A DNA stretch of 64,000 nt from Heyndrickxia coagulans 36D1 (lineage in GTDB: Bacteria; Bacillota; Bacilli; Bacillales; Bacillaceae_C), in NCBI RefSeq assembly GCF_000169195.2, contig NC_016023.1, positions 1,984,001 through 2,048,000 of the forward strand. Reading direction: 5' to 3'. Positions within the stretch are counted from its first letter, which is position 1. Every line of letters starts with the position of its first letter. The notes beneath the pieces were generated by a model that was given only the letters and a program-made list of their open reading frames with translations, did no database searches and was not told where the DNA came from. The translations under genes and the position numbers were made by a program. This document shows, one piece after another, positions 6,439 through 48,105 of the stretch.

Positions 6439-6951
6439 CTATGTGAAGGAAGACCTTTATTTTTGCTTGCTTTCTTAACATAGACGCGTTCTATGTGAAG
6501 GAAGGCCGTCGATTTTCCGTGCTTTCTTAACATAGACGCGTTCTATGTGAAGGAAGGCCGTCGATTTTCCGTGCTTTCTTAACATAGACGGGCGCTATGT
6601 GAAGGAAGACCTTCATTTTTCCGTGCTTTCTTAACATAGACGGGCGCTATGTAAAGGAAGACCGTCAATTTTCCGTGCTTTCTAAACGTAGGCGGGCTCT
6701 ACGTGAAGGAAGACCGTCAATTTTCCGCGCTTTCTTAACATAGACGCGCCCTATGTGAGGGAAGGCCATCGTATTTCCGCGCTTTCTTAACATAGACGCG
6801 TTCTATGTGAAGGAAGCCCATCAATTTTCCATGCTTCCTTAACGTAGGCGGGCGCTATGTGATGGAAGGGAGTCAATTTTCCGTGCTTTCTTAACGTAGG
6901 CGGGCGCTATGTGAAGGAAGGCCGTCAATTTACCGTGCTTTCTTCACATAG
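6439..6951. repeat. Family A array, 10 units of exactly 52 bp
   Basis: Unit starts (CTATGTG or close variants) fall at 6439, 6491, 6543, 6595, 6647, 6699, 6751, 6803, 6855 and 6907, always 52 bases apart. Each unit has arms CTATGTGAAGGAAG and CTTTCTTAACATAG around a ~17-base centre. Together they form a 45-bp imperfect palindrome, followed by a 7-bp linker. The right end runs directly into AGGGCTTGCTG (6950-6960), the inverted-end sequence of the 220-bp element found elsewhere in the window. Bases 6295-6438 hold no gene. Confidence 0.9.
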
Positions 6952-7018
6952 GGCTTGCTGCCGCTTAAATATGTTTCACGTGCCTGGCACTACCTGAAGT
7001 TTATCGAAAATCCCTAAA

Positions 7019-7048
7019 GGGAAGCGTAACTGCTCAGGTTGCGTTCCC
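7019..7048 (-). terminator. Hairpin after the Wadjet operon
   Basis: Read on the minus strand, GGGAACGCAAC pairs imperfectly with GTTACGCTTCCC. It lies just past the jetC stop. The T tract is weak. Confidence 0.5.
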
Positions 7049-7069
7049 CTTTCCTTATTAGATAGCCGA

Positions 7070-10000
7070 TCACTTCAACCGTATCCCCGTCACCTTGCTC
7101 TTCGGGATCGCCGGGTCATGCTGGACGACAAAAGCTTTTTTGAACCGGTTGATGTATTCATCTTCGTGTGATTTTGGTGTTAGGATGATCAGTTTTCGGT
7201 GCAGCTGTTCGACGTACAGGTCAAACACTTTTGATTTTCTTTGTTCATCCAGGGCGCTGTCGAATTCGTCGAGTACGATAAAGCCGGGGGTTGTTTCCAG
7301 GTTTTGCAGCAAGGCAAGGGCAAACAGCAGGGAGCTGAGAGATTCCTCGCCGCCGGATACACCTTTGCCAACTCTGCCACCGCGCGCTTTTACACTGACA
7401 TCTTCCATTGTGCCGCGGTGCCCTTCTTTTCGTGCTTTGATATACAGATCAAAATGGGTGCGCCTGTTTTTATCTTCCCGCTGCGCCCAGCTGATTTCAC
7501 CCTGAAACTGGAAAGCGGCCATGTACACGGCAAATCGTTTGTTGATCTCGAGAACGCGCATATTGATGGTTGTTTCCAGATTTTCTTTTAATGCTGCTGT
7601 TCTTTGTTTGTTGTGCTCCAACAGGATTTTTGACTCCTGGTATTCTTTTTCCAGCCTTTCATATTCTTCTTTTGCCTTTTTATAATTGTCTTCTGCGGCA
7701 GGGTCAATGCCTTCCTGATGCCTTGCGTTGTCAAAGGTGATCATGGCATTGCTGAGTTGTGTTTTAAGCGTTGTTTCTGAAAGCTCAGCCAGCCTTTCAA
7801 AACTGCTGCTAAATACGGCGTATAAATCGGGCACCAGGTTTTGTATTTCCTGGAGTTGCTGCATTACTATCACGAGTTCTGCCTGGCAAGTTTCCAGCCG
7901 TTCTTTTTTCCGGTTTTGCTGCAGCAGGGTGCTGTCGATATTCCGGTTAATGTCTTCCAGGCGGTTGATGATTGCACGCAATTTCCGCTCTTGATTCTTG
8001 ATCCGGCTTTCCTGCTCATCCAATTGGAATTCCAGTTCTTCGCGGGATGCATTTAAGGTTTTGATTTCTTTCCTTTTTTCTTTTTCCTGCCGGGCGATTT
8101 CACGAAGCTGATCAAACTTTTCTTTTCGTTTTCCGAGTTCTCTGTAAAACTCCAGCTCCTGTACAACCTGTTTTAATTCATGATTGAACTCTGTCTGCTT
8201 TTCAACAATATGATTTCTTCGCTGATCCAATTGTATTAATTCCTGTCTAAAACGGCTCTGTGCCGCGGTTGCTTCTGCAAGTTTCTGCTTTTTCTGCGCG
8301 CGTTCATGTTTTTGGGTCATGAATGCTTCTGCTTCTTTAACTTTTTGAATCTCACTGTTTAAAAACTGGAACTGTTCGGTATCAGACTGGATTTTTTGTT
8401 CCAGCATTTTCGCTTTGCTTTCCAGTTGCCCCAATTCTTGCTGCACTTGCTGAAGCCGGATCTGCCTTGCTCTTTGGCTGAGAATGTAGCCTGCTTTTTC
8501 CTGTGGCCCCCGGATCCCGCTTTGATCGATTAAAAAGCCGTTTTCTATACGGGGTTTAGTTCCGGTAAAAAACTGCTTTGTCCAATACAGGGCTTTGGCG
8601 GCAAAACGAATTTGTTCTTCAGTCAAGCCGGCTTTAATTTTTAAATGGAGTTCCGGAACATGTTCTTCGAATGTATCCGGTACGATATCCATGAGCGGCA
8701 CGTGGTACAGATCATTCGGCGGTTGTGCATGTTTGCCGTTAAAGAACACGGCATATTTAATGGCATTAAAGCGATTCTCGTCTTTCAGCTTGGCTGCGCT
8801 ATCCAATTCCAGCAGTTCCCTGAGCGGATAGGCGGCTATGCCGATCGTACGGAAATAATCAAGAGATTGCTGCTGGCGTTGTGAAACATTGCGATCCTCT
8901 TTTAATGAAAGCTCCTCTTTCCGGAGCTGCTTGATAGCGGCATTGGTTTCGTGCAGGAGGTCTCCATTTTGATGGATCGCTTTGCCCAGTTGATCAATCG
9001 TCGTCTGGACGTGGTGGCTGCTGTGGAACTGTTCCAGCTTTTCGAGATGGATTTTTTCCAACCGTTCGGCTTCTTCAATGAAATAGTGCAGCTTACCGAG
9101 TTCTTCTGACAACTCATTCAGCTTGTGATTGATTTCCTGAACGGAATAGTCAATTTCGCTTTTCTTTTGTTCAGTATGTTTCAGTTCCTTTAATAACTCA
9201 GCTTGTGCCGAGCGGGCTTCTTCTTCCGTCCGGGAAATGGTCTTCTGTTTCTCTGTCAGGCTTTCCAGTTCTTCTTCAAGGCCGTTTTTCTCGTCCGTAA
9301 TGGATTTTAGCCGGGTGTATTCCACTTTGATCCGCTGCTCAAGCGCTTTTAACGCTTCTTCCCGTTTCTCCAGCGTGGTAGCCAGGGACTTGATTGCCTC
9401 TTCCTGTTCTTCCTTTTGAGTAGAGGAGGAGGCATATTGATCTCTGAAATCATCCAGCTGCTCGCTTAAATCCTCAATAACGGAATTCACGGTTTCAATT
9501 TCTTTCTGGTAGAACAGTTCAAGATGAAGGAGGGAATGGATCGCTTTTTCCGCGCCCTCTTTTAATCTTCTCTGGTTGTCTAAAAAAACATCAAGCGCTG
9601 TTTTTAAAATACCTAGATTCTGTTTATTCAGCTTTACATGATTTTCAGCAGCCAAAAGCGTCTCCTCTGTTTCCTTCACCTTCTCCATGCTTTCTTCCCA
9701 GTTTTTCCGGGCCTGGTCAATGCCATGCATTTCGCTGAAAATACGGAAGCGTTCCTCAGGATGCATAACGGCGAATTGGTTGACTTCCTGCTGGTACCAG
9801 ATCAGGTAAAAAAGGTCAGAATCAATTTTATAGCGGTATTGCAATGCCTTTTTATAGGCGGAAAAATTATGGTACTGATCGCCCGATGTATAAGTTGTTT
9901 TTCCCTGCCATTCATCGATTGTCTCGCCTTTTTCAACGATAAATTCTTTTTTAATCGGCTGTCCCGGTTCTTGTTCAATATGCAGCGTGAATTCGATAAA

Positions 10001-10267
10001 TTCCGGTTCGTCAATTTTCATTTGTCCTGCATTTCGGAACAACAGGGAAATGTGCGCCCGCCATACTTGATCGGGACGCAGGTTTCTGGATTTCAGGCCT
10101 TCAACGTCCACTTTTGAAGAATAAAGGACAGCGCCCATGCAAAAGCTGATTGTCGATTTCCCGGAACCGTTCGGGCCTGTGATCATAATGTGCTCGTCTC
10201 CGCTCAGATCCATCAAAGTCGGTTCGAAGTCCCGGATACCGGCAAATTTGAGGCGGTAAGGAATCAT
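7070..10267 (-). CDS. jetC: JetC: SMC-like ATPase of a Wadjet system
   Basis: The 1065-residue protein has Walker A GPNGSGKST at residues 31-39, long coiled coils on both sides of a globular middle (about 470-620, the hinge), an ABC signature VSGGE near 970 and Walker B FIVLDE near 996-1001. This is the layout of SbcC/MukB-like SMC ATPases. In Wadjet, JetC with JetA and JetB forms a loop-extruding motor that recognises small circular DNA, which JetD then cuts. It is the last gene of the operon and overlaps jetB by four bases. SbcC is an alternative by sequence type, but the neighbouring genes rule out an sbcDC operon. Confidence 0.88.
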   Translation of the reverse strand: MIPYRLKFAGIRDFEPTLMDLSGDEHIMITGPNGSGKSTISFCMGAVLYSSKVDVEGLKSRNLRPDQVWRAHISLLFRNAGQMKIDEPEFIEFTLHIEQEPGQPIKKEFIVEKGETIDEWQGKTTYTSGDQYHNFSAYKKALQYRYKIDSDLFYLIWYQQEVNQFAVMHPEERFRIFSEMHGIDQARKNWEESMEKVKETEETLLAAENHVKLNKQNLGILKTALDVFLDNQRRLKEGAEKAIHSLLHLELFYQKEIETVNSVIEDLSEQLDDFRDQYASSSTQKEEQEEAIKSLATTLEKREEALKALEQRIKVEYTRLKSITDEKNGLEEELESLTEKQKTISRTEEEARSAQAELLKELKHTEQKKSEIDYSVQEINHKLNELSEELGKLHYFIEEAERLEKIHLEKLEQFHSSHHVQTTIDQLGKAIHQNGDLLHETNAAIKQLRKEELSLKEDRNVSQRQQQSLDYFRTIGIAAYPLRELLELDSAAKLKDENRFNAIKYAVFFNGKHAQPPNDLYHVPLMDIVPDTFEEHVPELHLKIKAGLTEEQIRFAAKALYWTKQFFTGTKPRIENGFLIDQSGIRGPQEKAGYILSQRARQIRLQQVQQELGQLESKAKMLEQKIQSDTEQFQFLNSEIQKVKEAEAFMTQKHERAQKKQKLAEATAAQSRFRQELIQLDQRRNHIVEKQTEFNHELKQVVQELEFYRELGKRKEKFDQLREIARQEKEKRKEIKTLNASREELEFQLDEQESRIKNQERKLRAIINRLEDINRNIDSTLLQQNRKKERLETCQAELVIVMQQLQEIQNLVPDLYAVFSSSFERLAELSETTLKTQLSNAMITFDNARHQEGIDPAAEDNYKKAKEEYERLEKEYQESKILLEHNKQRTAALKENLETTINMRVLEINKRFAVYMAAFQFQGEISWAQREDKNRRTHFDLYIKARKEGHRGTMEDVSVKARGGRVGKGVSGGEESLSSLLFALALLQNLETTPGFIVLDEFDSALDEQRKSKVFDLYVEQLHRKLIILTPKSHEDEYINRFKKAFVVQHDPAIPKSKVTGIRLK

Positions 10268-10962
10268 TCGGCATCTCCTTCTTGATATAAGTTATAGCGT
10301 TTGAAAAACTTTAATACTTCCTCTTTGTTCAGTTTGTTGGACTGGCTGAACTCGGCTGTGCGCCGTAAAAATGAGTCTGAAAACATATGTACACCGATTG
10401 CGGTCAGTTGATAGGCTTTATGATCGGAATGGGTATCCTCATATTCTTCAATGGCGCCGATTTTCTTGAGCTGGTCAAGGCTCAACTGAATACGCTGGTT
10501 TGCTTTCTTCGTTTCATGCCCTAAAGCTTCCAGCAACTGGCCGAATAAAGAAAATTCATGCTGCAACACTTCTTGTTGATAAAACATATAGAGCAAAAGG
10601 GCGAGGCTTTCTTTGGACAAGGTGTTTCGTGCTGCCCGGGCAGGGACACGCATCATGACCACAACCTGATCGCGCCTCTCGTCATAGATCACTTGAAAAT
10701 AACGGCTGACTGCCTGGTTAACGCGGGTGAGAAAGGAGAAAAATGCATCGTTATCGTTCTGGATTTTCAACTGTTTTTCCACTTCCTTTCTGGAAAGGCC
10801 GAAGTTTGCCCCGCGAATGGAAGCGGAGGAAGAGAATAACAGATTCATAAACGCAAGTTCCTCTTCTTCTGAGAGAATGCCTCTCAAAGCAGCCATTGCA
10901 TTCAAAGGAGAGGCATTATCGAACACCCGTTCCGAAAAATCATCCTTGATCAATTGGTTCAC
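10264..10962 (-). CDS. jetB: JetB: KITE-type subunit of Wadjet (MukE-like)
   Basis: The 232-residue soluble protein has winged-helix-like segments and no membrane span. I do not see a sharp motif. The call rests on size and on its place between a kleisin-like gene and the SMC-like ATPase gene, overlapping both (23 and 4 bases). In Wadjet, JetB binds the kleisin JetA and takes part in DNA handling by the motor. A downstream start is possible, because the first ~20 codons overlap jetA. Confidence 0.75.
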   Translation of the reverse strand: MNQLIKDDFSERVFDNASPLNAMAALRGILSEEEELAFMNLLFSSSASIRGANFGLSRKEVEKQLKIQNDNDAFFSFLTRVNQAVSRYFQVIYDERRDQVVVMMRVPARAARNTLSKESLALLLYMFYQQEVLQHEFSLFGQLLEALGHETKKANQRIQLSLDQLKKIGAIEEYEDTHSDHKAYQLTAIGVHMFSDSFLRRTAEFSQSNKLNKEEVLKFFKRYNLYQEGDAE

Positions 10963-12367
10963 CTTGCTTTCGTTTTGTAATCACTTGTTTGGCGTCCTGT
11001 TGATTCATCCATTCCCACGTTTTTTCATAAGTCTTTGTTTCGGTGTCACCCGGGTCCGGCTGGATATCAATTTTTTTGTTCGCCACAAGAGCGGCAAGTG
11101 CAGTTAACGCATTGACTGCGTCGCTCCATTCGCCGGAAGTGGCTTCAATGACCGCCTGTTCCATAGAAGCCTTGTGTATTTTTTCCAAGTAGTTTTCAAT
11201 CTTTTCCGTCTGGATCATGGACTTGGTCAGCATCCAGTTTGAGTTCCCCAGCAGTTCGTCCATCTCGTCTTTTGAGCCTTCCTCTGCTGCGTATTCGATT
11301 GTTTCTTCTTTCTCGCTTAAAGGTTCGGTGACGGGCTCGTAATTTTCAAGATAGTCAATGGCTTCGGAAATCCCGCTTCCCGAAATCGGGGATGCAAATT
11401 TAACCGGAATCCAAATCCCGTCCATCGCTTCGTCTTCATACTGGCCCTGCTCCATAAAGCTGAACATTTGGTATGCATTCGGAATGTCAGAATCAATGGG
11501 CGGGTCAAACATGGAAATGATAAATTGGCGAACAAGGTCCGGCTGGATACTGCTGGATAAAGGTGTTTTCTGCATTGTTGTAAACTTCAGGTATTTGTTG
11601 ATCATGCCTAAACTTAAGTTTGTTCCTTCAGACATCGCTGTTGTTCCGCGCTGCATCAGGTCTGTTAAAATCAGGCTTTCATCCATTGTTTCAAACATGC
11701 GGAACCGCTCGCTCAATTTTTCCTGCAATTCAGCCATTAAATCGTGGATTTTTTGTAATTGCGGCAGGGCATTCCGGTCGGCAAGCAGCTCTAATTCGCG
11801 TTCCTTTAGCATAAGAATTGTGTTTTCTACATTGCGGATCAGGCTTGCGATTTTGTTTCCGCCTGAAATGCCATGATCATCGTATGCCTCGCTCAATTCT
11901 GCATCACGGCGCGCCTGGAAAAGGGAACGGCCAATGTCATCTTCCAGATAATAAGCGAGTGAGTCATTGGCGAGGCGGATGAGTACATCCATCATCCGCT
12001 TTCCCAGATCCCGCATTTTCAGACCGGTTGTCTGTTTCGACAGCCAGTTGTTATTCACAAGCACATTGACAATATGCGCCACTTTTTTCTTTGACGGAGG
12101 ATCTGCGTCAGGAAAACGGTTTTGATACCGGTAGTACAGTGTATCCGAATTGGGAATGCGATCTCCGATGCCGAGCGCTTCTTCATTTAAGAGCTGAAGA
12201 ATTCTCAGAAAACGTAAAATCTCGGCTGGTGAATCAAAGACGCGTTGTGAGCCCATTTCACTTAAGACGCCCGATAAAGTGGCAATATCCCGCATAGATT
12301 GCAGCACAGCAGGAGAATCCGCCTGTTCCTGGAAGATTGATATTAGTGGGCGATCCATGTTTTCCAC
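10940..12367 (-). CDS. jetA: JetA: kleisin-like subunit of Wadjet (MukF-like)
   Basis: The 475-residue protein has a helical N-terminal part with winged-helix character, a central helical region (about 165-260) and an acidic linker (about 345-365, EPLSEKEETIEYAAEEG). This suits a kleisin that bridges the two heads of the SMC ATPase. The start is either the ATG at 12367 or the one at 12358 (MDRPLISIFQEQ). The 5' end overlaps jetD by about 25 bases and the 3' end overlaps jetB. Assignment comes mainly from operon context, since the primary sequence is poorly conserved among Wadjet kleisins. Confidence 0.75.
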   Translation of the reverse strand: MENMDRPLISIFQEQADSPAVLQSMRDIATLSGVLSEMGSQRVFDSPAEILRFLRILQLLNEEALGIGDRIPNSDTLYYRYQNRFPDADPPSKKKVAHIVNVLVNNNWLSKQTTGLKMRDLGKRMMDVLIRLANDSLAYYLEDDIGRSLFQARRDAELSEAYDDHGISGGNKIASLIRNVENTILMLKERELELLADRNALPQLQKIHDLMAELQEKLSERFRMFETMDESLILTDLMQRGTTAMSEGTNLSLGMINKYLKFTTMQKTPLSSSIQPDLVRQFIISMFDPPIDSDIPNAYQMFSFMEQGQYEDEAMDGIWIPVKFASPISGSGISEAIDYLENYEPVTEPLSEKEETIEYAAEEGSKDEMDELLGNSNWMLTKSMIQTEKIENYLEKIHKASMEQAVIEATSGEWSDAVNALTALAALVANKKIDIQPDPGDTETKTYEKTWEWMNQQDAKQVITKRKQGEPIDQG

Positions 12368-13644
12368 AGCATCACATCTCCTGTCTGCTCTTCTTGTTCC
12401 ATTCGCCTTGTTTCAAGGAATGCGGACATTTGTCCGGCGTATTGCGTCCAGCTGTTTAAGATTTCGCCGGCAGGGCCGATCCACTTCACAACAGGGGTTT
12501 CTTTTACAATTTCAAAAACTTCGCGGGCAATTCTGAAACCGTCCGGATCATAGTCCGTCCAGATGATTACCTGCTTTGGCGGGGAATTCCGGAGAATCTG
12601 TTCAATAAAGTGCCGATGGGCAGAGCGGACATGGCCGTCGCAGCATACTAGTAAAACCCGCATGTCCTTCAAAAAGTCTTTTTCCGCAGCAATTCTTGTT
12701 AAAATAGCGCGGTTTTCCACAATCCATAATGTTTCGGCTTCTGATGAATGGCTGTCTTCATAAAGGGATAAGTTCGTCACGGCATGAACCGGGCCGTAAT
12801 GATAGGATGAATATGTCCCTGTTACCTGTCCTGAAAAATAGACCGGGGTGAGGTTGCCAAGGCTCACCATTCCGAGTGCTTCAGCCGGATAACCCGCCCA
12901 AGCTTCAAAAAGATCCAGAAAATCGGATTTGTTCCGGTCAAACACTTTAGAACCGCCGATCTTTTTATAATAAGAAGCACCGATCTCTTTCCAGTCAAAC
13001 CGGTCTTGTACAGTGCTTATCTGGATGATGGCGGCTAAAAAGGCAAGGAACTTGATGCGCTTTTGATCCGGCCATGCCTTTTCGAATAATTCCGATTGGA
13101 TCAAAGCATCCGGACGGCAGACTGATAAAAAACGTTCCCTAATGCGCTCATAGATCGTTGATTTTACAGCGGTTTCGGCAGATGTAATATCGATTTGTTC
13201 GAAAGTATTTTTAAGCGTCATCAATTCATCTTGACGCGTCTGGTGCTCCATTAGCTTTTGTTCTTCCAAAAACCGGTAATAGGTATATCCCATCCGGTAA
13301 CACTGGCTGTCCACGGTTTTTCCGTCTGTCTTCAGCCGGACTTCTTTTACAATCCACCCTTCATCAAGCCACTTCAAAGTTTGAGGCTCGTCTTCATGAA
13401 GTGTGAGTTTTTTTCTTGGCGTTAAGTGCAGCTTCTCCAGTTGTGCCCCGGCTTTGCTTTTGCTGTCTCCGTCCGGCTTTCGGGCTCCGATTGTAAGAAT
13501 GCCGACCGTCCGGTACGTTCGCTTTGTTACTTTTACAATGGGGATATCGATAAATGTTTCCTTTGAGACGCCATCTAAGCGGAGTTGCTCCCCTTTTCTC
13601 AAAATGTATGCATTTAAATAATCCAGCACGGGTTGTTCGATCAT
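12343..13644 (-). CDS. jetD: JetD: Toprim nuclease of Wadjet (DUF2220/DUF2399-like)
   Basis: The 433-residue protein ends in a Toprim-like fold. VENRAIL supplies the conserved glutamate, and IIWTDYDPDG (residues about 360-369) supplies the D-x-D acidic pair that binds metal. In Wadjet this topoisomerase VI-like subunit cleaves the circular DNA held by the JetABC motor. Here it is the first gene of the operon (order D-A-B-C), unlike the A-B-C-D order I know for type I Wadjet. GAGGGAA lies before the ATG. Every junction in the operon overlaps, which suggests fixed subunit ratios. Confidence 0.85.
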   Translation of the reverse strand: MIEQPVLDYLNAYILRKGEQLRLDGVSKETFIDIPIVKVTKRTYRTVGILTIGARKPDGDSKSKAGAQLEKLHLTPRKKLTLHEDEPQTLKWLDEGWIVKEVRLKTDGKTVDSQCYRMGYTYYRFLEEQKLMEHQTRQDELMTLKNTFEQIDITSAETAVKSTIYERIRERFLSVCRPDALIQSELFEKAWPDQKRIKFLAFLAAIIQISTVQDRFDWKEIGASYYKKIGGSKVFDRNKSDFLDLFEAWAGYPAEALGMVSLGNLTPVYFSGQVTGTYSSYHYGPVHAVTNLSLYEDSHSSEAETLWIVENRAILTRIAAEKDFLKDMRVLLVCCDGHVRSAHRHFIEQILRNSPPKQVIIWTDYDPDGFRIAREVFEIVKETPVVKWIGPAGEILNSWTQYAGQMSAFLETRRMEQEEQTGDVMLWKTWIAH

Positions 13645-13669
13645 TCCGTTCCCTCATTTCTATACTTTT

Positions 13670-13697
13670 ATTGTAGCAAATCTGCCCGAAGATTGAA
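13670..13697 (-). promoter_or_regulatory. Candidate SigA promoter of the Wadjet operon
   Basis: On the minus strand, TTCAAT (-35) and TACAAT (-10) are separated by 16 bases, about 25 bases before the jetD start. The -35 is a weak match. Confidence 0.45.
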
Positions 13698-13699
13698 GT

Positions 13700-14139: not shown

Positions 14140-14178
14140 AAAACAGATGTTCAAAATTTAACAAATTGAGGGATAATC

Positions 14179-17024: not shown

Positions 17025-17053
17025 AGGGCGGTCTTCTAATTGGAATGCCTATT

Positions 17054-17590
17054 AGGGCTTGCTGAATAAGTAAAATTCCTAGATTTCGAAAGGATGCTGA
17101 CAGCTTTGGCAAAAATTTAAATGCAAGGGTTTTATAAAAAATCGAGGGAAAAGCTTGCACTTGAAAGATGATTCAACGTATAGAGAAGACAGAATCGCCT
17201 TTTCGAAGATGGATTCTTCTATATTTTGAGACATAGCTGGTCTCTATGTGAAGGAAGGGCTTTGTATTTGCGTGCTTTCTTAACATAGCCGTGCCCTATG
17301 TGAAGAAAGGCCTTCATTTTTCCATGCTTCCTTAACGTAGACGTACTCTATGTGAAGAAAGGCCCTCAATTTTCCGCGCTTCCTTAACGTAGCCGGTCCC
17401 TATGTGAAGAAAGGCCGTCAATTTTCCGTGCTTTCTTAACGTAGACGTGCTCTATGTGAAGGAAGGCCTTCATTTTCCGATGCTTCCTTAACGTAGGCGG
17501 GCGCTATGTGAAGGAAGGCCCTCAATTTTCCGTGCTTCCTTGCTAACAAATTGGGTATAAACTTAGAATCGGATTTGTTCGGCAAGTCCT
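17054..17590. mobile_element. 220-bp MITE-like element, copy 1, split by a family A array
   Basis: The left end AGGGCTTGCTGAA (17054-17066) and the right end GGCAAGTCCT (17581-17590) are imperfect inverted repeats. The sequence 17054-17230 matches the left 180 bases of the copy at 49847-50066, and 17551-17590 matches its last 40 bases. The intervening ~310 bases are the 52-bp repeat array. There is no transposase gene. It would need an enzyme supplied elsewhere. Confidence 0.7.
17244..17550. repeat. Family A array, 6 units of exactly 52 bp
   Basis: CTATGTG unit starts lie at 17244, 17296, 17348, 17400, 17452 and 17504. Arm sequence and 45-bp palindrome geometry are the same as in the array at 6439. 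It sits inside the MITE-like element, between its GAGAC and AAATTGGG segments. Confidence 0.9.
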
Positions 17591-17671
17591 AATTAGACAT
17601 TTTCAACCGTCTATTTCTCAAGATTAGAGAGCAGCCAGATAGAGTCGTGTTCCATTTCTGCACCTTTAAAT

Positions 17672-34242: not shown

Positions 34243-34330
34243 ATGCCTTGTGCACCGTTCGCTCCCTTGTGCAGAACAGATAAAAGCGCACGTTGCGGTC
34301 TGGATGCCTGGATCGGTGAAATGTCTAATT

Positions 34331-34547
34331 AGGGCTTGCTGAACGAATCCGATTCTGAGTTTGTACCCAATTTGTCAGCAAGCTCTGTCTTAAAATATAG
34401 AAGAATCCATCTTTGAAAATGCGATTCTTTCTTCTCTATCATTGAATCAGCTTTCAAGCGCAAGCTTTTCTTTGGATTTTTCTAAAACCCTTGCACCTTG
34501 CATTAAATTTTTCCAAATCTAGGAATTTTGGTTATTCAGCAAGCCCT
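34331..34547. mobile_element. 220-bp MITE-like element, copy 2 (inverted)
   Basis: The 217-bp element is bounded by AGGGCTTGCTGAA (34331) and TTCAGCAAGCCCT (to 34547). It is an inverted copy of 49847-50066. It has no open frame. Its right end abuts the first unit of the family A array with no gap. Confidence 0.8.
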
Positions 34548-35325
34548 AGGTTAAGGAAGCGTGGGAAATTGAAGGCCTTCCTTCACATAGGGCGCGTCTA
34601 CGTTAAGAAAGCACGCAAAAACGGAGGCCTTTCTTCACATAGAGTCCGTCTATGTTAAGGAAGTGTGGAAAAATGAAGGTCTTCCTTAATATAGAGTGCG
34701 TCTACGTTAAGGAATCGAGAAAAAAATGCGTTGTTCCTTAACATAGAGCCTGTCTATGTTAAGGAAGCATAGAAAAATGACGTCCTTTCTTCATATAGGG
34801 CGCGTCTACGTTAAGGAAGCACGAAAAAAAGTGTTGTTCCTTAACATAGAGCCCGTCTATGTTAAGGAAGCATAGAAAAATGACGTCCTTTCTTTATATA
34901 GGGCGCGACTACGTTAAGGAAGCACGGAAAAACGAAGGCCTTTCTTCACATAGAGCGCGTCTATGTTAAGGAAGCGAGGAAAATTGAAGGTCTTCCTTCA
35001 CATAGGAGGCGTCTACGTTAAGAAAGCACGGAAAAACGAAGGCCTTTCTTCACATAGAAGGCGTCTACGTTAAGGAAGCACGATAAAACGAGGCTCTTCC
35101 TTCACATAGAGCCCGTCTATGTTAAGGAAGCGTGGAAAAATGAATGCTTTCCTTCACATAGAAGGCGTCTACGTTAAGGAAGCACAGAAAAACGAAGGCC
35201 TTCCTTCACATAGAGTGCGTCTACGTTAAGGAAACGCGCAAAAAAAGTGTTGTTCCTTCACATAGAGCCCGTCTATGTGAAGGAAGCATGAAAAAATGAC
35301 GTCCTTTCTTCATATAGAGTGCGTT
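34546..35325. repeat. Family A array, 15 units, inverted orientation
   Basis: Unit starts (CTACGTTAAG or CTATGTTAAG) fall at 34546, 34598, 34650, 34702, 34754, 34806, 34857, 34909, 34961, 35013, 35065, 35117, 35169, 35221 and 35273. One step is 51 bases and all others are 52. Array and MITE-like copy are both inverted relative to those at 17 kb. Confidence 0.9.
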
Positions 35326-37120: not shown

Positions 37121-37124
37121 GTGG

Positions 37125-40671: not shown

Positions 40672-40675
40672 ATAC

Positions 40676-40720: not shown

Positions 40721-40801
40721 TAATTATTTTGGAAGACCCGATATTTAAAGCTTGTCGAGAAAAACTTGACAGAAACATGGACTTTTTGAGGTTTGGGCAT
40801 A

Positions 40802-40831
40802 TATAATATACATATACAATTGTATATGTAT
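40802..40831 (+). promoter_or_regulatory. -10 box and 24-bp palindromic operator of the toxin-antitoxin pair
   Basis: TATAAT at 40802-40807 is followed at once by a perfect 24-bp palindrome (40808-40831, arms ATACATATACAA and TTGTATATGTAT). The position right after the -10 box fits autorepression by the antitoxin or the complex. A weak -35 (TGGACT, 40778-40783) lies 18 bases upstream. Confidence 0.65.
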
Positions 40832-40859
40832 AATTACATATGCTACGGAGGTGATTGCA

Positions 40860-41234
40860 GTGTTCAATAAACCCCCAATAGAAATTGAATTTGAAACAAG
40901 GCAGGAAAAAGAAGCTTTTATCAAATGGGTTTTGGAACCAAGTGCACCATCAGAAGAGCTAAAACGCTTGAGTCAAATTCGGAAAAAAGCAAAAACAGTA
41001 CAAATGATGCAAAATCAATTCGGGCGAAGCCATTCTCAGAACAACACAGAAGCCTCTGCAATTGTCAGGAGAAAAGGCGTGCAGAAAATACCAAGTTACA
41101 CTCTTAAAAGTCACGCCCTGCAGATTATAAATAATAACGGCAAATATACCAGTGGTGTTTCTTTGGATTTAAATAAAAGGAATGTCGGCAGACGAAATAA
41201 AAATTCAATACATGGTGGTAAGGGGAAAGTATGA
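40860..41234 (+). CDS. Candidate antitoxin, unrecognised family
   Basis: I choose the GTG at 40860 (MFNKPPIEIEFETRQEKEAF), with GGAGGTGAT at 40847-40855. The 124-residue protein has an acidic N-terminal half (about 1-40) and a strongly basic C-terminal half ending RNKNSIHGGKGKV. It overlaps the acetyltransferase gene by four bases (ATGA). Gene order, coupling and the palindromic operator point to an antitoxin. It does not look like the ribbon-helix-helix DUF1778 antitoxins usually paired with TacT toxins, so the DNA-binding fold may be new or just not visible to me. Confidence 0.6.
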   Translation: MFNKPPIEIEFETRQEKEAFIKWVLEPSAPSEELKRLSQIRKKAKTVQMMQNQFGRSHSQNNTEASAIVRRKGVQKIPSYTLKSHALQIINNNGKYTSGVSLDLNKRNVGRRNKNSIHGGKGKV

Positions 41235-41815
41235 AGCTTGTTCCTATAACACAAGTTGACCGGCGGGTTATTGAAGATTTCACATGTTTATTTCCTAAGT
41301 ATGAGAAACACCAACAACAGCTGAAAAAGGATCATGAAGAGATTGATGAATATCTAAAAGAAAAAGCATTAAAAAATCATTTAAATAATTTAGTAAGAAC
41401 CCACCTCCTTTTAAATGAAACCGAAAATAAAGTGATTGGGTTCTTTTCTTTGTTTAACGATAGCTGCTTCATTTCTAACAAAAAAGAAAAAAGCCTAAAG
41501 TTCAAACAATTTGAAATTAATAGAGGAGAAGGAATCACTGATCTTCCAGCTATCCATCTCCATAAGTTTGCTATACATCAATCATATCAGGGAAAATCCT
41601 TTGGAGGTATGAAATTCAGCGATTATTTATTGAGTTGTGTGTTTGATACAGTAGTAGCTGTCACCACTTTGTCGGGATGTATGCTGATTATATTGGAAGC
41701 AACTGATAATGCATTTGCCTATTATCAACATCGTGGTTTTAAAGTATTAAATAAAAAAAGTGGAAATACATTGCCTTTAATGATTTTTAAGGTTAATGAT
41801 ATCCCAAACTGCTAG
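41231..41815 (+). CDS. TacT-like GNAT acetyltransferase, candidate toxin
   Basis: The 194-residue protein shows the GNAT acetyl-CoA site in LHKFAIHQSYQGKSFGGMKF (about residues 110-129, Q-G-K-S-F-G). An AYYQHRGFKVL segment near the C-terminus resembles the FYxxFGF end of TacT/AtaT toxins. Such toxins acetylate the amino acid on charged tRNA and stop translation. It is made together with the upstream candidate antitoxin. It is AT-rich compared with hsdR and hsdM, which suggests the pair was acquired separately. A plain acetyltransferase role cannot be excluded. Confidence 0.7.
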   Translation: MKLVPITQVDRRVIEDFTCLFPKYEKHQQQLKKDHEEIDEYLKEKALKNHLNNLVRTHLLLNETENKVIGFFSLFNDSCFISNKKEKSLKFKQFEINRGEGITDLPAIHLHKFAIHQSYQGKSFGGMKFSDYLLSCVFDTVVAVTTLSGCMLIILEATDNAFAYYQHRGFKVLNKKSGNTLPLMIFKVNDIPNC

Positions 41816-41864
41816 TTGTGACAATTATTGTGAGAAAAATGATAAATGAGAAAGCAGGAGAATG

Positions 41865-43295
41865 ATGAATAACCAGGAGATCGTACAAAAGCTTTGGAAC
41901 TTATGTAATGTTTTACGTGATGATGGAATTACATATCAGCAATATGTGACGGAATTAACGTATCTGCTGTTTTTAAAAATGATGAAAGAGCAGGAAACAG
42001 AATCTGCCATCCCGGAAGGCTACCGTTGGGATGACCTTGTGGCAAAAGAAGGGACGGAGCTGAAAACATTTTATCAGCACTTGCTGCTGTATTTGGGCAG
42101 CAGCGGCAATGAAATGCTGCGTCATATTTACAGCGATGCAGCGACCAGTATTTCAGAGCCGAAGAACCTTGAAAAAATCATTAAATCGATTGATGCACTC
42201 GACTGGTACAGCGCAAAAGAAGAAGGGCTGGGCAATCTGTATGAGGGATTGCTTGAGAAAAACGCGAGCGAAAAGAAATCGGGGGCGGGGCAATATTTTA
42301 CACCGCGCGTCCTGATTGATGTGATGGTGCAGCTGGTCGACCCGAAAATCGGTGAGCGCTGCGCTGACCCGGCAGCCGGCACTTTTGGCTTTATGATTGC
42401 CGCGGACCGTTATTTAAAACAACAAACGGATGACTATTTTGACCTGGATCCGCAAATGGCGGAATTCCAGAGAAAGGAAGCTTTCTCCGGGATGGAACTG
42501 GTAAAAGACACGCACCGTCTTGCATTAATGAATGCCCTGCTCCACAGCATGGAAGGGCGCATTGAGCATGGCGACTCTTTATCCAACAACGGGAAATGGA
42601 TGAAAAATCTGGATGTCATTTTAACCAATCCTCCTTTTGGCACAAAAAAAGGCGGCGAACGGGTATCGCGTGATGACTTGACGTTTGACACATCGAACAA
42701 GCAATTGAATTTTCTGCAGCTGATCTACAATGCCTTAAAAGATGATGGCAAAGCGCGTGCAGCAGTCGTTTTGCCGGATAATGTGCTGTTTGAAAGTGGC
42801 GTTGGTGCGCAAATCCGCCGCGACTTAATGAACAAATGCAATCTGCACACGATTTTAAGGTTGCCGACAGGTATTTTTTACGCACAAGGGGTCAAAACAA
42901 ACGTCTTGTTCTTTACAAGGGGAAAAACCGACCGGGACAACACAAAAGAAGTGTGGGTGTATGACCTCCGCACGAACATGCCGTCATTCGGGAAACGCAA
43001 CCAGTTGACGATGGCGCATTTCGAAAATTTCATGAAAGCATACGAAGCCGAAGACCGTTCCAAAGTGGAAGACGAGCGCTGGAATGTGTTCACACGCGAA
43101 GAAATTGCAAAAAAAGACGACAGCCTCGACATCGGCCTGATCGCGGACGAGTCATTGTCCTCATACGAAAACTTGCCGGATCCGATTGAATCGGCAGAAG
43201 AAGCGATTGCAAAACTGCAGCAGGCGATGGACTTACTGGGCGAAGTGGTGGATGAGCTGCGTGCTGTGGAAATGGATGAGGTGGTCTTGAAGTGA
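41865..43295 (+). CDS. hsdM: Type I restriction-modification methylase, HsdM
   Basis: The ~476-residue protein is an N6-adenine methyltransferase. The S-adenosylmethionine site is DPAAGTFGFMI (about residues 168-178) and the catalytic motif is TNPPFGTKKGGER (about 254-266). The N-terminal HsdM helical domain is complete. An ATG three bases earlier (41862) lies almost on the AGGAG site, so I prefer 41865. It overlaps hsdS by four bases. With HsdS it methylates host DNA, and with HsdR it forms the restriction complex. Confidence 0.96.
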   Translation: MNNQEIVQKLWNLCNVLRDDGITYQQYVTELTYLLFLKMMKEQETESAIPEGYRWDDLVAKEGTELKTFYQHLLLYLGSSGNEMLRHIYSDAATSISEPKNLEKIIKSIDALDWYSAKEEGLGNLYEGLLEKNASEKKSGAGQYFTPRVLIDVMVQLVDPKIGERCADPAAGTFGFMIAADRYLKQQTDDYFDLDPQMAEFQRKEAFSGMELVKDTHRLALMNALLHSMEGRIEHGDSLSNNGKWMKNLDVILTNPPFGTKKGGERVSRDDLTFDTSNKQLNFLQLIYNALKDDGKARAAVVLPDNVLFESGVGAQIRRDLMNKCNLHTILRLPTGIFYAQGVKTNVLFFTRGKTDRDNTKEVWVYDLRTNMPSFGKRNQLTMAHFENFMKAYEAEDRSKVEDERWNVFTREEIAKKDDSLDIGLIADESLSSYENLPDPIESAEEAIAKLQQAMDLLGEVVDELRAVEMDEVVLK

Positions 43296-44743
43296 GAAAG
43301 AAGCAAAAGACCATGGAGGAGTTATTGGAAGAAGCTTTGGTGCCAGAGGGAGAGCAGCCGTATGAAGTGCCGGGGAATTGGGTGTGGGTGAAATTAAAAA
43401 CAATTAATAAGGATAAAAAGCGCAACATTGATCCAAAAAGCTTTAAAGACGAAACGTTTGAATTATATAGTGTACCTAGTTTTCCTGAAGGATCTCCTGA
43501 ATTTATTAAAGGCGATGAAATAGGGTCTAGTAAACAGCTGGTTAATAAAGATGAAATTTTGTTGTGTAAAATTAATCCTCGTATTAATAGGGTATGGAAA
43601 GTATTAAATAACCATGGGAAGTTTCGGCAGCTAGCTTCAACAGAATGGATTGTTATAAGCGAAAATAAAGCAATTTATTCTGAGTATTTACTATACCTGT
43701 TGAAGTCTCCTTATTTTCGAAAACTAATTACATCAAATGTATCAGGTGTAGGTGGTTCGCTTACAAGAGCAAGACCTAAAGAAGTTGAAACTTACCCTAT
43801 TGCTGTACCGCCAATAAAAGAGCAAAAACGCATTGCAGACAAAGTAGAGCGTCTTTTAAGTAAAATCGACGAAGCAAAACGGTTGATTGAGGAAGCGAAG
43901 GAAACGTTTGAACTGCGTAGGGCGGCTATTTTGGATAAGGCGTTTCGGGGGGAGCTGACGAGGAAGTGGAGAGAGGAAAATAAAAACATTGAAGATGCCG
44001 AGTCATTATATGTCAAAATAAAGGAATCTCAAAGTATACGGAGAAAAGTATCAAAGGAAATTAATATTAAAGACTTAAGGTATAGCATTCCATCAACTTG
44101 GAAATGGGTAAGATTAGGAGATGTCTTTACAATTACTTCTGGAGGCACTCCAAAAAGAACTATTCCAGAATATTACGAAGGAAATATACCATGGATTAAA
44201 ACCGGTGAAATAAAATGGAATGCTATTAATGAAAGTGAAGAGCAAATTACTCCTGAAGCAGTTGCAAATAGTTCTGCAAAGTTGCTTCCACCAAATACTG
44301 TTTTGGTTGCTATGTATGGCCAGGGATTGACAAGAGGTAGAGCTGCTATTTTAAGTGTGGAAGCGACTTGTAATCAAGCTGTTTGTGCGTTATTGCCTAA
44401 TGATTATATAGCACCAGAATTCATATTTTATTATTTTATGGAAGGCTATCAAAGGTTTAGACAGGTGGCAAAGGGAGGTAATCAAGAAAATTTGAGTGTC
44501 TCGTTAATATCAGACTTTATTTTTCCATTGCCGCCATTAGAAGAACAGAGAGTAATAATCACCACTTTACAAAATATATTTAAAAAAGAAAGTAAAATAA
44601 AAGATGTAATCAAAATAAATACAGACGAAATAAAACAATCCATCCTCTCCAAAGCCTTCCGCGGCGAGCTTGGAACGAATGATCCGACCGAAGAAAGTGC
44701 GATCGAGTTATTAAAAGAAGTGCTGCAGGAACAAGTGAAATAA
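43292..44743 (+). CDS. hsdS: Type I restriction specificity subunit, HsdS
   Basis: The 483-residue protein has two target recognition domains. The first begins near YEVPGNWVWVKL (about residue 28) and the second near YSIPSTWKWVRLGDVFTITS (about 265). A central conserved helix with ILDKAFRGELTRKW (about 210) and a C-terminal ILSKAFRGELGTND (about 450) separate them. The domains read two half-sites of the methylated sequence. Both are AT-richer than the conserved spacers, as expected for regions that are swapped between strains. The target sequence cannot be predicted here. Confidence 0.95.
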   Translation: MRKKQKTMEELLEEALVPEGEQPYEVPGNWVWVKLKTINKDKKRNIDPKSFKDETFELYSVPSFPEGSPEFIKGDEIGSSKQLVNKDEILLCKINPRINRVWKVLNNHGKFRQLASTEWIVISENKAIYSEYLLYLLKSPYFRKLITSNVSGVGGSLTRARPKEVETYPIAVPPIKEQKRIADKVERLLSKIDEAKRLIEEAKETFELRRAAILDKAFRGELTRKWREENKNIEDAESLYVKIKESQSIRRKVSKEINIKDLRYSIPSTWKWVRLGDVFTITSGGTPKRTIPEYYEGNIPWIKTGEIKWNAINESEEQITPEAVANSSAKLLPPNTVLVAMYGQGLTRGRAAILSVEATCNQAVCALLPNDYIAPEFIFYYFMEGYQRFRQVAKGGNQENLSVSLISDFIFPLPPLEEQRVIITTLQNIFKKESKIKDVIKINTDEIKQSILSKAFRGELGTNDPTEESAIELLKEVLQEQVK

Positions 44744-44753
44744 GCGTAATCAT

Positions 44754-44787
44754 GGCAGGGGCTGTTTGTTGATTCCCCTGCCTTTTT
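44754..44787 (+). terminator. Terminator of hsdMS
   Basis: GGCAGGGG pairs with CCCCTGCC around a 13-base loop, followed by five T. Confidence 0.85.
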
Positions 44788-44836
44788 CTAACTGCCTGGC
44801 TAGAGGTGATCTTTGAAGCCGCTGTGTTTTACCACG

Positions 44837-46183
44837 TCAAATCCCGAGCCGTTTCATCCGGTACTGGAGACTTTGCCGGCTTAACCCGAGCTGTTCTGCT
44901 GCTTTTGATATATTCGACCCGTTTGCCTCAAGCGCTTCTAAAATACAATGCTTCTCGTATTCAAACAGCCGGTCTTTTAAAAGCGGTGATTTTTCCGCCG
45001 GCGAATTGAAGTGGCCGGACTGCCGGTACTGCATGGGCAGATGGCGAAGCTCAATCATGTCTTCATCGAGCATGACATTCATCGCTGCCTCAATCATATG
45101 CTCCAGCTCGCGTATATTGCCAGGCCAGCGGTACGACCGGAAGAAAGTGAGCACTTCCGGTGTGATCCCCCTGACATTCATTTGAAAAAGGGGATTGTAT
45201 TTTTGAATAAAATGGCCGGTGAGAAGGGGCAAATCTTCCAGCCGGTCCCGTAACGGCGGGATAAACAGCGTCACGACACCAAGCCGGTAATACAAATCTT
45301 TGCGCAGCCGGTGATTTGCAATCGCTTCGTAAGGCGTTTCGTTCATGGTGGCGATCACGCGCACATCCACCGGCTTTTCCTGCGTGCCCCCGATCCGTTT
45401 TACTTTTTTCTCTTGCAGCACGCGCAAAAGCTTTGCCTGCAAATGAATGTTCAACGCATTGATTTCGTCGAGCAGAAGCGTGCCGCCGTCCGCCTGTTCG
45501 AACAGCCCTGCGCGGTCAACAGCACCTGTAAATGCCCCTTTCTTCGTGCCAAATAAGATACTTTCAATGAGATTGTCGGGAAGCGCAGCGCAGTTTTGCG
45601 CGATGAACGGTCCCCGGCTTCTTTCGCTTTCATAATGGATGCTTTGCGCGAACAACTCTTTTCCCGTCCCGGTTTCACCGATAATCAGCACATAGGAGGA
45701 AGTGCGGGCGGCGCGCCTTGAAAATTCAATGACTTCGGAAATCGCCTTGCTTTTCCCGATAATATGGTGAAATGTATATCCGGTATGGGACTCGTGGTTT
45801 CGGCGGATGAGGCGCTCAATTTTCGTAATGTCCTCCGCAATTTCAACAGCGCCCGCCAATTTTCCTTTATAATAAAACGGATACGTATGGTTGACGGAAG
45901 TAATTTCGCGGCCTTTATTGTTAAAGTACGTCTGTTTGACAAGATGGCTTTCTTCTCCGGTTTTGAGCGCCTTTAACAAGGTGCTTTCTTCACTGCTGCG
46001 GAAGCGGAAAACATCTTCCAACTTTTTATACAGTACTTCACGGCTGTCCATCCCCTCAATATCCCGCATTTTTTGATTGTAAATCATCGTGCGCCCTTCT
46101 TCATCCACTGCATGAATGCCGGCATCGACGAGATTCATTATTGTTTCGTACAACGCGAGGAGTACATCTTTTGTTTCTTCCAT
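44837..46183 (-). CDS. rocR: RocR-like sigma-54 activator (PAS-AAA-Fis)
   Basis: I choose the ATG at 46183 (MEETKDVLLALYETIMNLVD). The ~448-residue protein has an N-terminal PAS domain (about 10-115) and an AAA+ domain with GETGTGKE and the sigma-54 contact loop GAFTGA. It ends in a Fis-type helix-turn-helix (NGSNISKAAEQLGLSRQSLQ). In B. subtilis, RocR responds to ornithine or citrulline and opens SigL promoters of roc genes. Here it is divergent from rocD, and the shared region holds the activator site. It does not lie in front of the SigL promoter itself, so it is probably expressed from a normal promoter. Confidence 0.88.
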   Translation of the reverse strand: MEETKDVLLALYETIMNLVDAGIHAVDEEGRTMIYNQKMRDIEGMDSREVLYKKLEDVFRFRSSEESTLLKALKTGEESHLVKQTYFNNKGREITSVNHTYPFYYKGKLAGAVEIAEDITKIERLIRRNHESHTGYTFHHIIGKSKAISEVIEFSRRAARTSSYVLIIGETGTGKELFAQSIHYESERSRGPFIAQNCAALPDNLIESILFGTKKGAFTGAVDRAGLFEQADGGTLLLDEINALNIHLQAKLLRVLQEKKVKRIGGTQEKPVDVRVIATMNETPYEAIANHRLRKDLYYRLGVVTLFIPPLRDRLEDLPLLTGHFIQKYNPLFQMNVRGITPEVLTFFRSYRWPGNIRELEHMIEAAMNVMLDEDMIELRHLPMQYRQSGHFNSPAEKSPLLKDRLFEYEKHCILEALEANGSNISKAAEQLGLSRQSLQYRMKRLGI

Positions 46184-46234
46184 GTTGTGTCCACCCCCTT
46201 CGATGATAAAAATTTTAAAATATTTTGCGGCTTT

Positions 46235-46253
46235 ATGCAAAAATTTTTTGCAT
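46235..46253. promoter_or_regulatory. RocR-type upstream activating site of rocD
   Basis: ATGCAAAAATTTTTTGCAT is a perfect 19-bp palindrome, identical to the site at 37016. It lies 40 bases before the SigL promoter. Confidence 0.75.
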
Positions 46254-46292
46254 TTTCACTGAAAAAACCGCACGAAGGCCTTTTTTTCATGA

Positions 46293-46308
46293 TGGCATTC
46301 TTTTTGCA
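46293..46308 (+). promoter_or_regulatory. SigL (sigma-54) promoter of rocD
   Basis: TGGCATTCTTTTTGCA gives -24 TGGCAT and -12 TTGCA with the correct spacing, 40 bases before the rocD ATG. Confidence 0.8.
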
Positions 46309-46348
46309 TATGAATGGATAGGGACATTGAAAAGAAGGGGGAAACAAA

Positions 46349-47560
46349 ATGGCACAAGTAAAAGAGCAAGCGAAACAAGTAATTGAAAAAACGGAACAGT
46401 TCGGTGCGCATAATTATGCGCCGCTTCCGGTTGTCATTTCGGAAGCGGAAGGGGTGTGGGTGAAGGATCCGGACGGCCGCCGCTATATGGATATGCTGAG
46501 TGCTTATTCGGCACTGAACCAGGGGCACCGCCACCCGAAGATCATTCAGGCATTAAAAGACCAGGCGGACCGTGTGACGCTCACATCACGCGCGTTTTAT
46601 AACGACAAACTTGGCGAATGGTACGAAAAAGTGTGCCAACTGACGAAAAAGGATATGGTGCTGCCGATGAACACCGGGGCGGAAGCGGTGGAAACGGCGG
46701 TCAAAGCTGCACGGCGCTGGGCATATGATGTGAAAGGCGTGCCGGACAATAAAGCGGAAATCATTGCCTGTACCGGAAATTTCCATGGCCGTACGCTGCT
46801 TGCGGTGTCGCTCTCATCGGAAGAAGAATATAAACGCGGCTTCGGGCCGATGATTGAGGGCATCAAGCTCATTCCGTACGGGGATGCGGAAGCGCTGCGG
46901 GAAGCCATCACTCCGAATACGGCAGCGTTCCTTGTTGAGCCGATCCAGGGGGAAGCTGGCATCAACATTCCGCCGGCCGGGTTTTTAAAAGAAGCAGCGG
47001 ATATTTGCCGCGCGTCCCGGGTGCTTTTCATGGCAGACGAGGTGCAAACCGGGTTAGGCCGGACCGGCAAGTTGTTTGCGGTTGACTGGGAGGGTGTTAC
47101 CCCGGATGTGTTCATTCTTGGGAAAGCGCTTGGCGGCGGTGTCATGCCGATTTCCTGTGTAGCTGCAAATAAAGAAATACTGGGTGTATTCAACCCGGGG
47201 TCGCACGGCTCGACGTTCGGCGGCAACCCGCTTGCATGCGCGGTATCGATCACAAGCCTTGAGGTGATTGAAAAAGAAAAATTGGTGGAACGCTCGCTCC
47301 GGCTTGGGCAGGTGCTCCTGGAGAAACTGCGTGAAATCAAGCACCCGTCGATTAAGGAAATCCGCGGCCGCGGCCTTTTCATCGGCGTGGAGCTCACGGA
47401 ACCGGCGCGCTCCTATTGCGAAGCATTGAAAGAGGAAGGGCTGCTTTGCAAAGAAACGCATGAAAACGTCATCCGCTTTGCCCCGCCGCTCGTCATAACG
47501 GAAGAAGAGCTGGAATGGGCCGTTGAACGAATCCGGAAAGTTTTCGAGGAGAAAAAATGA
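46349..47560 (+). CDS. rocD: Ornithine aminotransferase
   Basis: The 403-residue PLP enzyme converts ornithine and 2-oxoglutarate to glutamate semialdehyde and glutamate. The N-terminal [20 protein letters not shown] is characteristic of ornithine aminotransferases. The PLP lysine is about K259 in LGKALGGG, and an aspartate in [14 protein letters not shown] contacts the cofactor ring. AAGGGGG precedes the ATG. With the RocE-like permease under the same control it would use arginine or ornithine as a nitrogen source. RocF and RocA are not in the window. Confidence 0.95.
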
Positions 47561-47564
47561 TCAG

Positions 47565-47599
47565 AAGCCTGCGCTGCCAAACGGCGGGGCGGCTTTTTT
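47565..47599 (+). terminator. Terminator of rocD
   Basis: An imperfect GC-rich hairpin (AAGCC...TGCC / GGC...GGCTT) is followed by TTTTTT. Confidence 0.65.
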
Positions 47600-47799
47600 G
47601 ATTGGGAAGAAATATAAGAGGCGCCCACGCATGCGAAATGTTTTTTGGGGGCCAGCCAAAAAGAAAAAATAACTATGCATTGCCGGCAGGGCCATGCCAA
47701 ACATTCATTTGGAAAGTAATATGCTGTTCGAGTGGTGCACAGGTAGCAAAAATATATTTGAAAGCGGTGGTTCACTTATCATTGCCTTTCGTACATGCG

Positions 47800-48105
47800 A
47801 TGAAGGACATTTCGTTGCAGGGGAGCCGGTCAAATGTCCTTCATACCCGTGATGAAGGACATTTCGTTGCAAGGGAGCCGGTGATTTGTCCTTCATACCC
47901 GTGATGAAGGACATTTCGTTGCAAGGGAGCCGGTGATTTGTCCTTCATAACCGTGATGAAAGACATTTCTTTGCAGGGGAGCCGGTGATTTGTCCTTCAT
48001 AACCGTGATGAAGGACATTTCGTTGCAAGGGAGCTAATCATTTGTCCTTCATAATCGTGATGAAGGACATTTCATTGCAAGGGAACCGATCATTTGTCCT
48101 TCATC
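47800..48105. repeat. Family B array, 6 units of exactly 52 bp
   Basis: Units start with ATGAAGGACATTT at 47800, 47852, 47904, 47956, 48008 and 48060. The other arm is ATTTGTCCTTCAT. Together they make a 45-bp imperfect palindrome with a 7-bp linker (often ACCCGTG). The sequence differs from family A except for the TGAAGGA/TCCTTCA core of the arms. The flanks (47600-47799 and 48106-48420) hold no gene. Confidence 0.9.

Follow-up and report, generated by a model that had tools for sequence, protein, structure and literature searches.

The window examined here comprises 64,000 nucleotides from Heyndrickxia coagulans 36D1, whose genome is a single contig of 3,552,226 bases, and it carries intergenic tandem arrays of short inverted repeats that were sorted into families A, B, and C (Table 1). 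Tandem Repeats Finder (TRF) returned a period of 52 bp for the three family A arrays and the one family B array, in agreement with the first-pass annotation of this DNA, which had described both families as a 45-bp palindrome plus a 7-bp linker. Both do fit such a unit (14+17+14 in A and 10+25+10 in B); the alternative reading of the same ring, as 10-7-10 dyads 25 bp apart, is the version that generalises. In the family A array at 6.4 kb, the unit is the half-site CTTNACNTAG (extended, CTTYCTTNACNTAG), a 7-bp linker, the inverted half-site, and a 25-bp linker, with 14-bp arms spaced by 21 and 31 bp. The family B unit is TGTCYTTCAT, a 7-bp linker, ATGAARGACA, and a 25-bp linker. In the general frame, a 10-bp half-site, 7 bp, the inverted half-site, and 25 bp sum to 52 bp, sometimes 51 or 53. 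Family C had been assigned to the same geometry and was dropped as a lattice member, as its period is 125 bp and its unit has no match in the genome beyond its own locus; the 45-bp palindrome is apparently coincidental. By a Pfam scan, the 10 genes next to the A, B, and C arrays encode a catalase, an aldolase, a TetR regulator, an amino acid permease, an aminotransferase, a sigma-54 activator, two AMP-binding enzymes, one protein without a match, and one with a sub-threshold SMC match. The last is part of a type III Wadjet operon that adjoins the array at 6.4 kb and holds all four genes, JetD, JetA, JetB, and JetC (PADLOC). Searches of the window for Rfam families (gathering threshold) and for tRNAs found neither.

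A and B are two among many sequence families on one lattice. By our own grouping, with 40 of 59 candidates scored, the genome holds at least about 47 further A and B places. We analysed 39 stretches around A and B places and 20 evenly spaced stretches (391 kb) that were not picked for arrays. TRF over all stretches gave four families with a period of 52 bp, namely A, B (TGTCYTTCAT), D (TGTCYTTTTG), and E (TGTCYAATTR). Widely varying periods elsewhere in the genome had been named as the outcome that would reduce the shared geometry to chance. This is not what was found: in the 20-stretch sample, 7 of 11 tandem arrays with a period of at least 30 bp had period 52, these seven falling in 4 of the 20 stretches and some lying adjacent to each other. 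The commonest spacings in own-genome DNA sum to 52 bp in each family, with 31 bp (341 pairs) and 21 bp (328 pairs) between the 14-bp arms of A, 17 bp (106) and 35 bp (98) in B, 17 bp (89) and 35 bp (81) in D, and 16 bp (7) and 36 bp (10) in E. Expressed as 10-bp half-sites, all four are 10-7-10-25. With 5 to 9 bp allowed, the inner linker was exactly 7 bp in 263 of 266 A dyads and in all B (82/82) and D (65/65) dyads, and at junctions between TGTC-frame families within these arrays (exact dyads), the 52-bp register was held within 2 bp in five of six cases. The TGAAGGA sequence, previously taken as a core common to A and B, sits at different positions in the two half-sites and is absent from the D and E consensus half-sites; read from the sequences in this way, it was abandoned as a common core. 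The best 10-bp arm match in shuffled units (n = 240) ranged from 5 to 9, with 6 or 7 in 206 and 8 or 9 in 23. Unit consensuses of real arrays reached 8 to 10 in 43 of 43 A arrays, 133 of 133 B arrays, 10 of 11 D arrays, and three of five E arrays, as well as in 37 of 48 other arrays, a class that includes arrays of unchecked nature.

The lattice extends well beyond this genome. A B-type tandem pattern, with matches of 42 to 86 bases allowed, was scanned over genome contigs and found at least 113 loci, several per genome, which among the matches listed lie in Neobacillus, Metabacillus, Alkalihalobacillus, Gracilibacillus, Salinibacillus, Ureibacillus, Lysinibacillus, Scopulibacillus, Anaerobacillus, and others. 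At the 113 loci among the matches listed, the inner gap was 7 bp in 406 of 409 cases. The outer gap was 25 bp in 371 of 418 cases, 24 in 33, 26 in 9, 23 in 3, and 37 and 49 once each, so that only two departed from 25 by more than 2 bp. A pattern free of the inner arm (TGTCY-N17-RGACA-N20..30-TGTCY-N17-RGACA) matched 71 of 397 sampled genomes of the order, in 29 of 135 genera and with up to 434 matches per genome; the reversed pattern, used as a control, had no match in these 397 genomes. In a sample of 398 genomes of the phylum, the pattern occurred in three, namely the window genome, one genome of the same order, and G429, where the sole match outside the order has a layout unlike these units. 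The control matched once in that sample, in G436. Inner arms among the matches listed include TTCAT, GTCAT, GTAAG, GTGAG, GCGAG, AGTAG, and GATTG. Genomes G203 and G295, which were inspected more widely, carry further half-sites. By eye, some half-sites in G203 lack TGTC and keep the same lattice (TGAYGTWGAG, TGCAYTAGAG, TGATCTTTAG, and others), with the type switching along single arrays. The four arrays with tandem units in G295 have a period of 51 bp. Among 285 distinct arrays of period 30 to 130 from all fetched loci, a tally biased in that most loci were chosen because they bear arrays, 212 had a period of 52 bp, 22 of 51, 5 of 53, and 12 of 42. The proposal that geometry is kept while sequence changes, and hence that spacing is selected, is thus supported far outside the window by families D and E, the 113 loci, and the 71 genomes. 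The accompanying idea that all dyads face the same side of the helix stood in part: 52 bp fits, but spacers of 14 to 15 or 35 to 36 bp, which would keep the face and were allowed, were unseen in the 113 loci, and the distance itself therefore seems fixed. Searches of mobile DNA gave no matches to the B tandem pattern in viral contigs, to A and B arrays in plasmids, or to the B array in phages; coverage of A, D, and E across these collections was incomplete.

Comparison of orthologous loci indicates that some arrays are old at their places while their letters are exchangeable. At locus L068, the flank pieces are 80 to 86% identical to those in genome G003; the window genome has a B array there, G003 has TGTCTTGTTG-7-TAATTAGACA units, and the period is 52 bp in both. 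Locus L236 of H. coagulans DSM 1 and locus L098 of the window genome both carry B units (unit starts 52 to 53 bp apart in DSM 1), and most flank pieces on both sides are 95 to 96% identical, with one piece of 86% identity extending into the array. For the A array at L061, agreement with DSM 1 locus L151 (92%) is on one side only, and the contig ends shortly past the array. Exact forward matches to tandem A units numbered 249 in the window genome and 4 in the DSM 1 draft; the family's other 32 genomes had no such match, although G003 has a looser A-like array at L137. Array length probably changes via ordinary unequal recombination.

Conservation was higher in the arms than in the long linker in 101 of 105 arrays (A, 32/32; own TGT-frame, 17/17; other, 52/56), a figure that is inflated and to that extent counts against the interpretation given below, because six arm bases served as the conservation anchors. 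By our own reading of per-column values, the remaining arm columns still average above the linkers. The units are also polar. The three bases outside the arms were T/T in 379, A/A in 333, T/A in 60, and A/T in 51 of 980 units; since flanks are mostly T/T or A/A (712/980), the palindrome stops at the arms. The polarity shows no evident relation to gene direction, with 9 same and 4 opposite for own A arrays, 1 same for A elsewhere, 5 and 2 for own TGTC arrays, and 12 and 17 for TGTC arrays elsewhere. Among 57 own arrays, the neighbouring genes were convergent in 22 cases, codirectional in 26, and divergent in 7, and 2 arrays lay at a stretch edge, with open reading frames (ORFs) called by length only and without a genome-wide baseline; these counts indicate that 3' ends are favoured.

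Two candidate protein families and one structural property were considered, none of which was retained. AsnC/Lrp regulators, considered as trans-acting factors, occurred in 22 of 23 array-rich and 20 of 23 array-free genomes and did not track the arrays. Y1 (RAYT-type) transposases (PF01797), which are linked to repetitive extragenic palindromic (REP) elements, did not track them either in these 46 genomes chosen from the 397 (21/23 and 19/23, respectively). PF01797 was not found in the array-bearing genomes G116 (285 matches) and G246 (62 matches), and all that the window genome has of it is a fragment interrupted by a stop. This family includes IS200-type transposases, which makes the test coarse. 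Intrinsic curvature, calculated from wedge parameters, was clearly higher than in column-permuted versions in one of seven arrays (D array L072, z = -5.9), with -2.2 for B array L163 and -1.7 to +0.45 for the other five, and was rejected as a common property.

We propose, with a probability of roughly 45%, that the arrays serve as a double-stranded DNA scaffold for a putative oligomeric protein. Each array would present inverted 10-bp half-sites on the fixed 10-7-10-25 lattice, and a putative dimeric DNA-binding protein, or several related ones with different site preferences, would bind the half-sites. Contact between neighbouring dimers would hold both linkers at a constant length and leave the letters of linkers and half-sites free to change. 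Such contact would be the most economical way to account for a distance that is fixed although the letters vary. Candidate uses are chromosome organisation or insulation between genes. It is possible, if doubtful, that the arrays are a bacterial counterpart of satellite DNA, with paralogous, rapidly evolving DNA-binding proteins on a fixed 52-bp lattice in Bacillales, the half-site specificity being replaced from one family or species to the next while the assembly geometry is conserved. The usual place to look for function is in conserved letters, but in these arrays the letters turn over and the distance stays, which methods based on aligned sequence miss. Should a protein lattice be the cause, a large group of soil and industrial bacteria would carry an abundant system, as yet unnamed, that organises the chromosome or is mobile, and the natural arrays would be ready baits.

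Several observations weigh against the scaffold. No binding protein was found, and clustering of neighbouring genes (loci L151 to L283 and the window, without own loci L061 to L119) gave unannotated clusters only, the largest with 30 ORFs in 26 loci. The junctions of family A with other families were out of register in four of four cases. Conservation of the half-sites is also expected if a copying enzyme needs them as its recognition site. In this main rival, a recombinase, transposase, or replication-linked enzyme would recognise the dyad and add or move units of fixed length, and the lattice would reflect the reach of the enzyme rather than a function of the array. The trace of such an enzyme, if its reach is fixed, would look much like that of a protein lattice, and the patchy distribution (71/397 genomes), the strong differences in copy number among relatives (249 exact A matches against 4 in DSM 1), and the genome-specific period of G295 all agree with it. 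We consider it unlikely, however, given that solitary dyads are few (3 versus 20 in arrays in the 391 kb), that some arrays persist at orthologous loci, that Y1 transposases do not track the arrays, and that no recurrent dedicated neighbour gene was recognised. Were it true, a recombination chemistry that advances in fixed 52-bp steps would be written into the arrays. The two main options remain a DNA-binding protein and a shared copying process, both of which the first-pass annotation had suggested. Neutral satellites, amplified by unequal crossing over from an inherited ancestral 52-bp unit, with recombination purging odd-length units and so keeping the period, appear improbable. Tandem arrays homogenise through recombination, and long linkers are alike within an array (69 to 78% mean identity), as such an origin would predict; it does not account for half-sites conserved above linkers, for a period that is constant although letters differ between families and at one orthologous locus, or for the rarity of outer linkers more than 2 bp off 25 (2/418).

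In the hairpin rival, the units would be RNA or extruded-DNA stem-loops with a 10-bp stem and a 7-nt loop, acting for example to attenuate transcription or to stabilise 3' ends, roles that have been proposed for REP elements. The inner five bases differ between families yet mostly stay complementary, and in 886 TGTC-frame units, pairs 7 to 9 were about 95% paired compared to 49 to 71% in shuffled units, which a hairpin also explains; much of this high pairing reflects differences between families. Pair 5 was near independence in the same units (65% paired versus 61% shuffled), and in flank-oriented units it was weakly associated towards pairing (odds ratio 1.8; Fisher P = 0.0005). Of the 27 arrays that had four or more pair-5 mismatches, 17 had mismatches of a single kind, for which shared descent or a strand-specific constraint could be the cause, and at pair 10 of flank-oriented units G-T (45) exceeded A-C (8). 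The placement towards 3' ends also suits a hairpin. However, on the gene strand of arrays between codirectional genes, pair-5 mismatches were A-C in 64 and G-T in 23 cases (15 arrays richer in A-C, 8 in G-T), which is the opposite of the tolerance of an RNA stem. A check of arm covariation had been suggested, and family A, in which three degenerate positions coincide in both arms (CTTYCTTNACNTAG), showed no pairing covariation at these positions: among 341 units, paired states numbered 96, 118, and 159 where independence predicts 123, 145, and 174. Many units have mismatched arms. Repeated units at L352 have, by eye, about three mismatched stem pairs and keep the period; mismatched G003 units, as RNA, would still form a stem with one mismatch and two G-U pairs and are compatible with a hairpin. 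A stem-loop, moreover, needs no 25-bp distance to the next one, the A/A and T/T flanks do not extend the palindrome, and polarity has no clear link to genes. These results lower the hairpin or RNA reading, which we regard as improbable, and selection on a fixed hairpin size, the other half of the earlier proposal, is less supported than selection on spacing. Hairpins and neutral inheritance each explain parts only.

Intergenic repeat clusters such as REP elements with bacterial interspersed mosaic elements (BIMEs) and Staphylococcus aureus repeat (STAR) elements are a known kind. REP elements and BIMEs are GTAG- and CGTC-tagged palindromic repeats (PMC3733652), and like the present arrays they are short, high-copy, and intergenic, mostly downstream of genes, with several families per genome and clusters. 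The tag is missing here, with GTAG within 6 bp outside the stem in 1 of 980 TGTC-frame units and CGTC in none (family A lying outside this count), and the array with a fixed 52-bp period is the main form. STAR elements of Staphylococcus (PMC3532100) form intergenic clusters without assigned function that are stable at their loci, expand and contract, and do not follow relatedness in abundance. In contrast to the inverted half-site lattice, they are built from a GC-rich direct repeat of 14 bp whose copies are separated by 40 bp or more of recurring sequence, and their signature, T(G/A/T)TGTTG(G/T)GGCCC(C/A), had no occurrence in the 0.83 Mb of own DNA or the 1.74 Mb of other DNA. Partition centromere arrays, like the present ones, have tandem repeats with one inverted-repeat site per unit. 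The F plasmid centromere sopC/parS-F has a 43-bp repeat (PMC6238139), or about four helical turns by our own arithmetic; it is one plasmid site with one sequence, whereas the arrays here are dozens of chromosomal ones with many sequences and no binding partner identified. The regular repeat-spacer look also recalls clustered regularly interspaced short palindromic repeats (CRISPR) and the "false CRISPR" of PMC5294841, and array finders may call these arrays. CRISPR have near-identical repeats with unrelated spacers, in contrast to linkers that are alike within an array, and no cas family was among the Pfam matches of the 10 genes flanking the window arrays. Among the open-access papers listed, no title or abstract described these arrays or a fixed lattice common to many unrelated sequences across an order.

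Family A is associated with a 226-bp element resembling a miniature inverted-repeat transposable element (MITE). One copy adjoins the array at 34.5 kb, two segments enclose the array at 17.2 kb, the first stopping a few bases before it and the second overlapping its end, and a further MITE-like element lies elsewhere in the window. Of 38 family A arrays, 18 had a copy or segment no more than 150 bp away, compared to a mean of 1.67 and a maximum of 8 in 500 trials of random placement; the other 20 had none within this distance. The corresponding counts were 0 of 10 for B, 0 of 2 for E, and 2 of 7 for D, both D cases having an A array nearby. Family A was probably dispersed in the window genome with a MITE. 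Separately, an insertion sequence (IS)-like insert with TATATAAGATGAACT ends seemingly splits a family E array at L111.

Table 1. Positions of repeat arrays and other features, in the window unless a locus is named
Feature	Location	Coordinates	Strand	Remarks
Family A array	Window	6434-6951	+	TRF period 52, 10.0 copies
Wadjet type III operon	Window	7070-13644	-	JetD, JetA, JetB, JetC
MITE segment	Window	17053-17238		Before array
Family A array	Window	17234-17541 (TRF 17244-17541)	+	TRF period 52, 5.7 copies; inside MITE
MITE segment	Window	17539-17596		Overlaps array end
MITE-like element, 226 bp	Window	34325-34550		Ends TAGGGCTTGCTGAA / TTCAGCAAGCCCTA
Family A array	Window	34546-35324	- (opposite orientation)	TRF period 52, 15.0 copies; abuts MITE
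Family B array	Window	47799-48104	+	TRF period 52, 5.9 copies
MITE-like element	Window	49847-50067		TAGGGCTTGCTGAA ends
Family C repeat	Window	51968-52245	+	TRF period 125, 2.2 copies; outside 52-bp lattice
121-bp tandem repeats	Window	58680-59062
IS-like insert	L111	3320-4543		TATATAAGATGAACT ends
Period-52 array	L330	4701-5052
Period-52 array	L293	1472-1901
21-bp-step array	L344	18039-18281
21-bp-step arrays	L345	1135-1354, 5697-5965
21-bp-step array	L338	12981-13086
21-bp-step array	L340	3742-3843

Several minor features were also recorded. Some period-52 arrays of other genomes, such as those at L330 and L293, have their best 10-bp arm match at gaps besides 7 or 25 bp, and arm and loop length may differ between families. 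G203 and G295 contain direct-repeat arrays with a step of 21 bp, or two helical turns, with the motifs TCGCGCG, TTTATTGCGAA, and GGATAT. The 121-bp tandem repeats in the window seemingly combine the end of the gene upstream with the start of the gene downstream.

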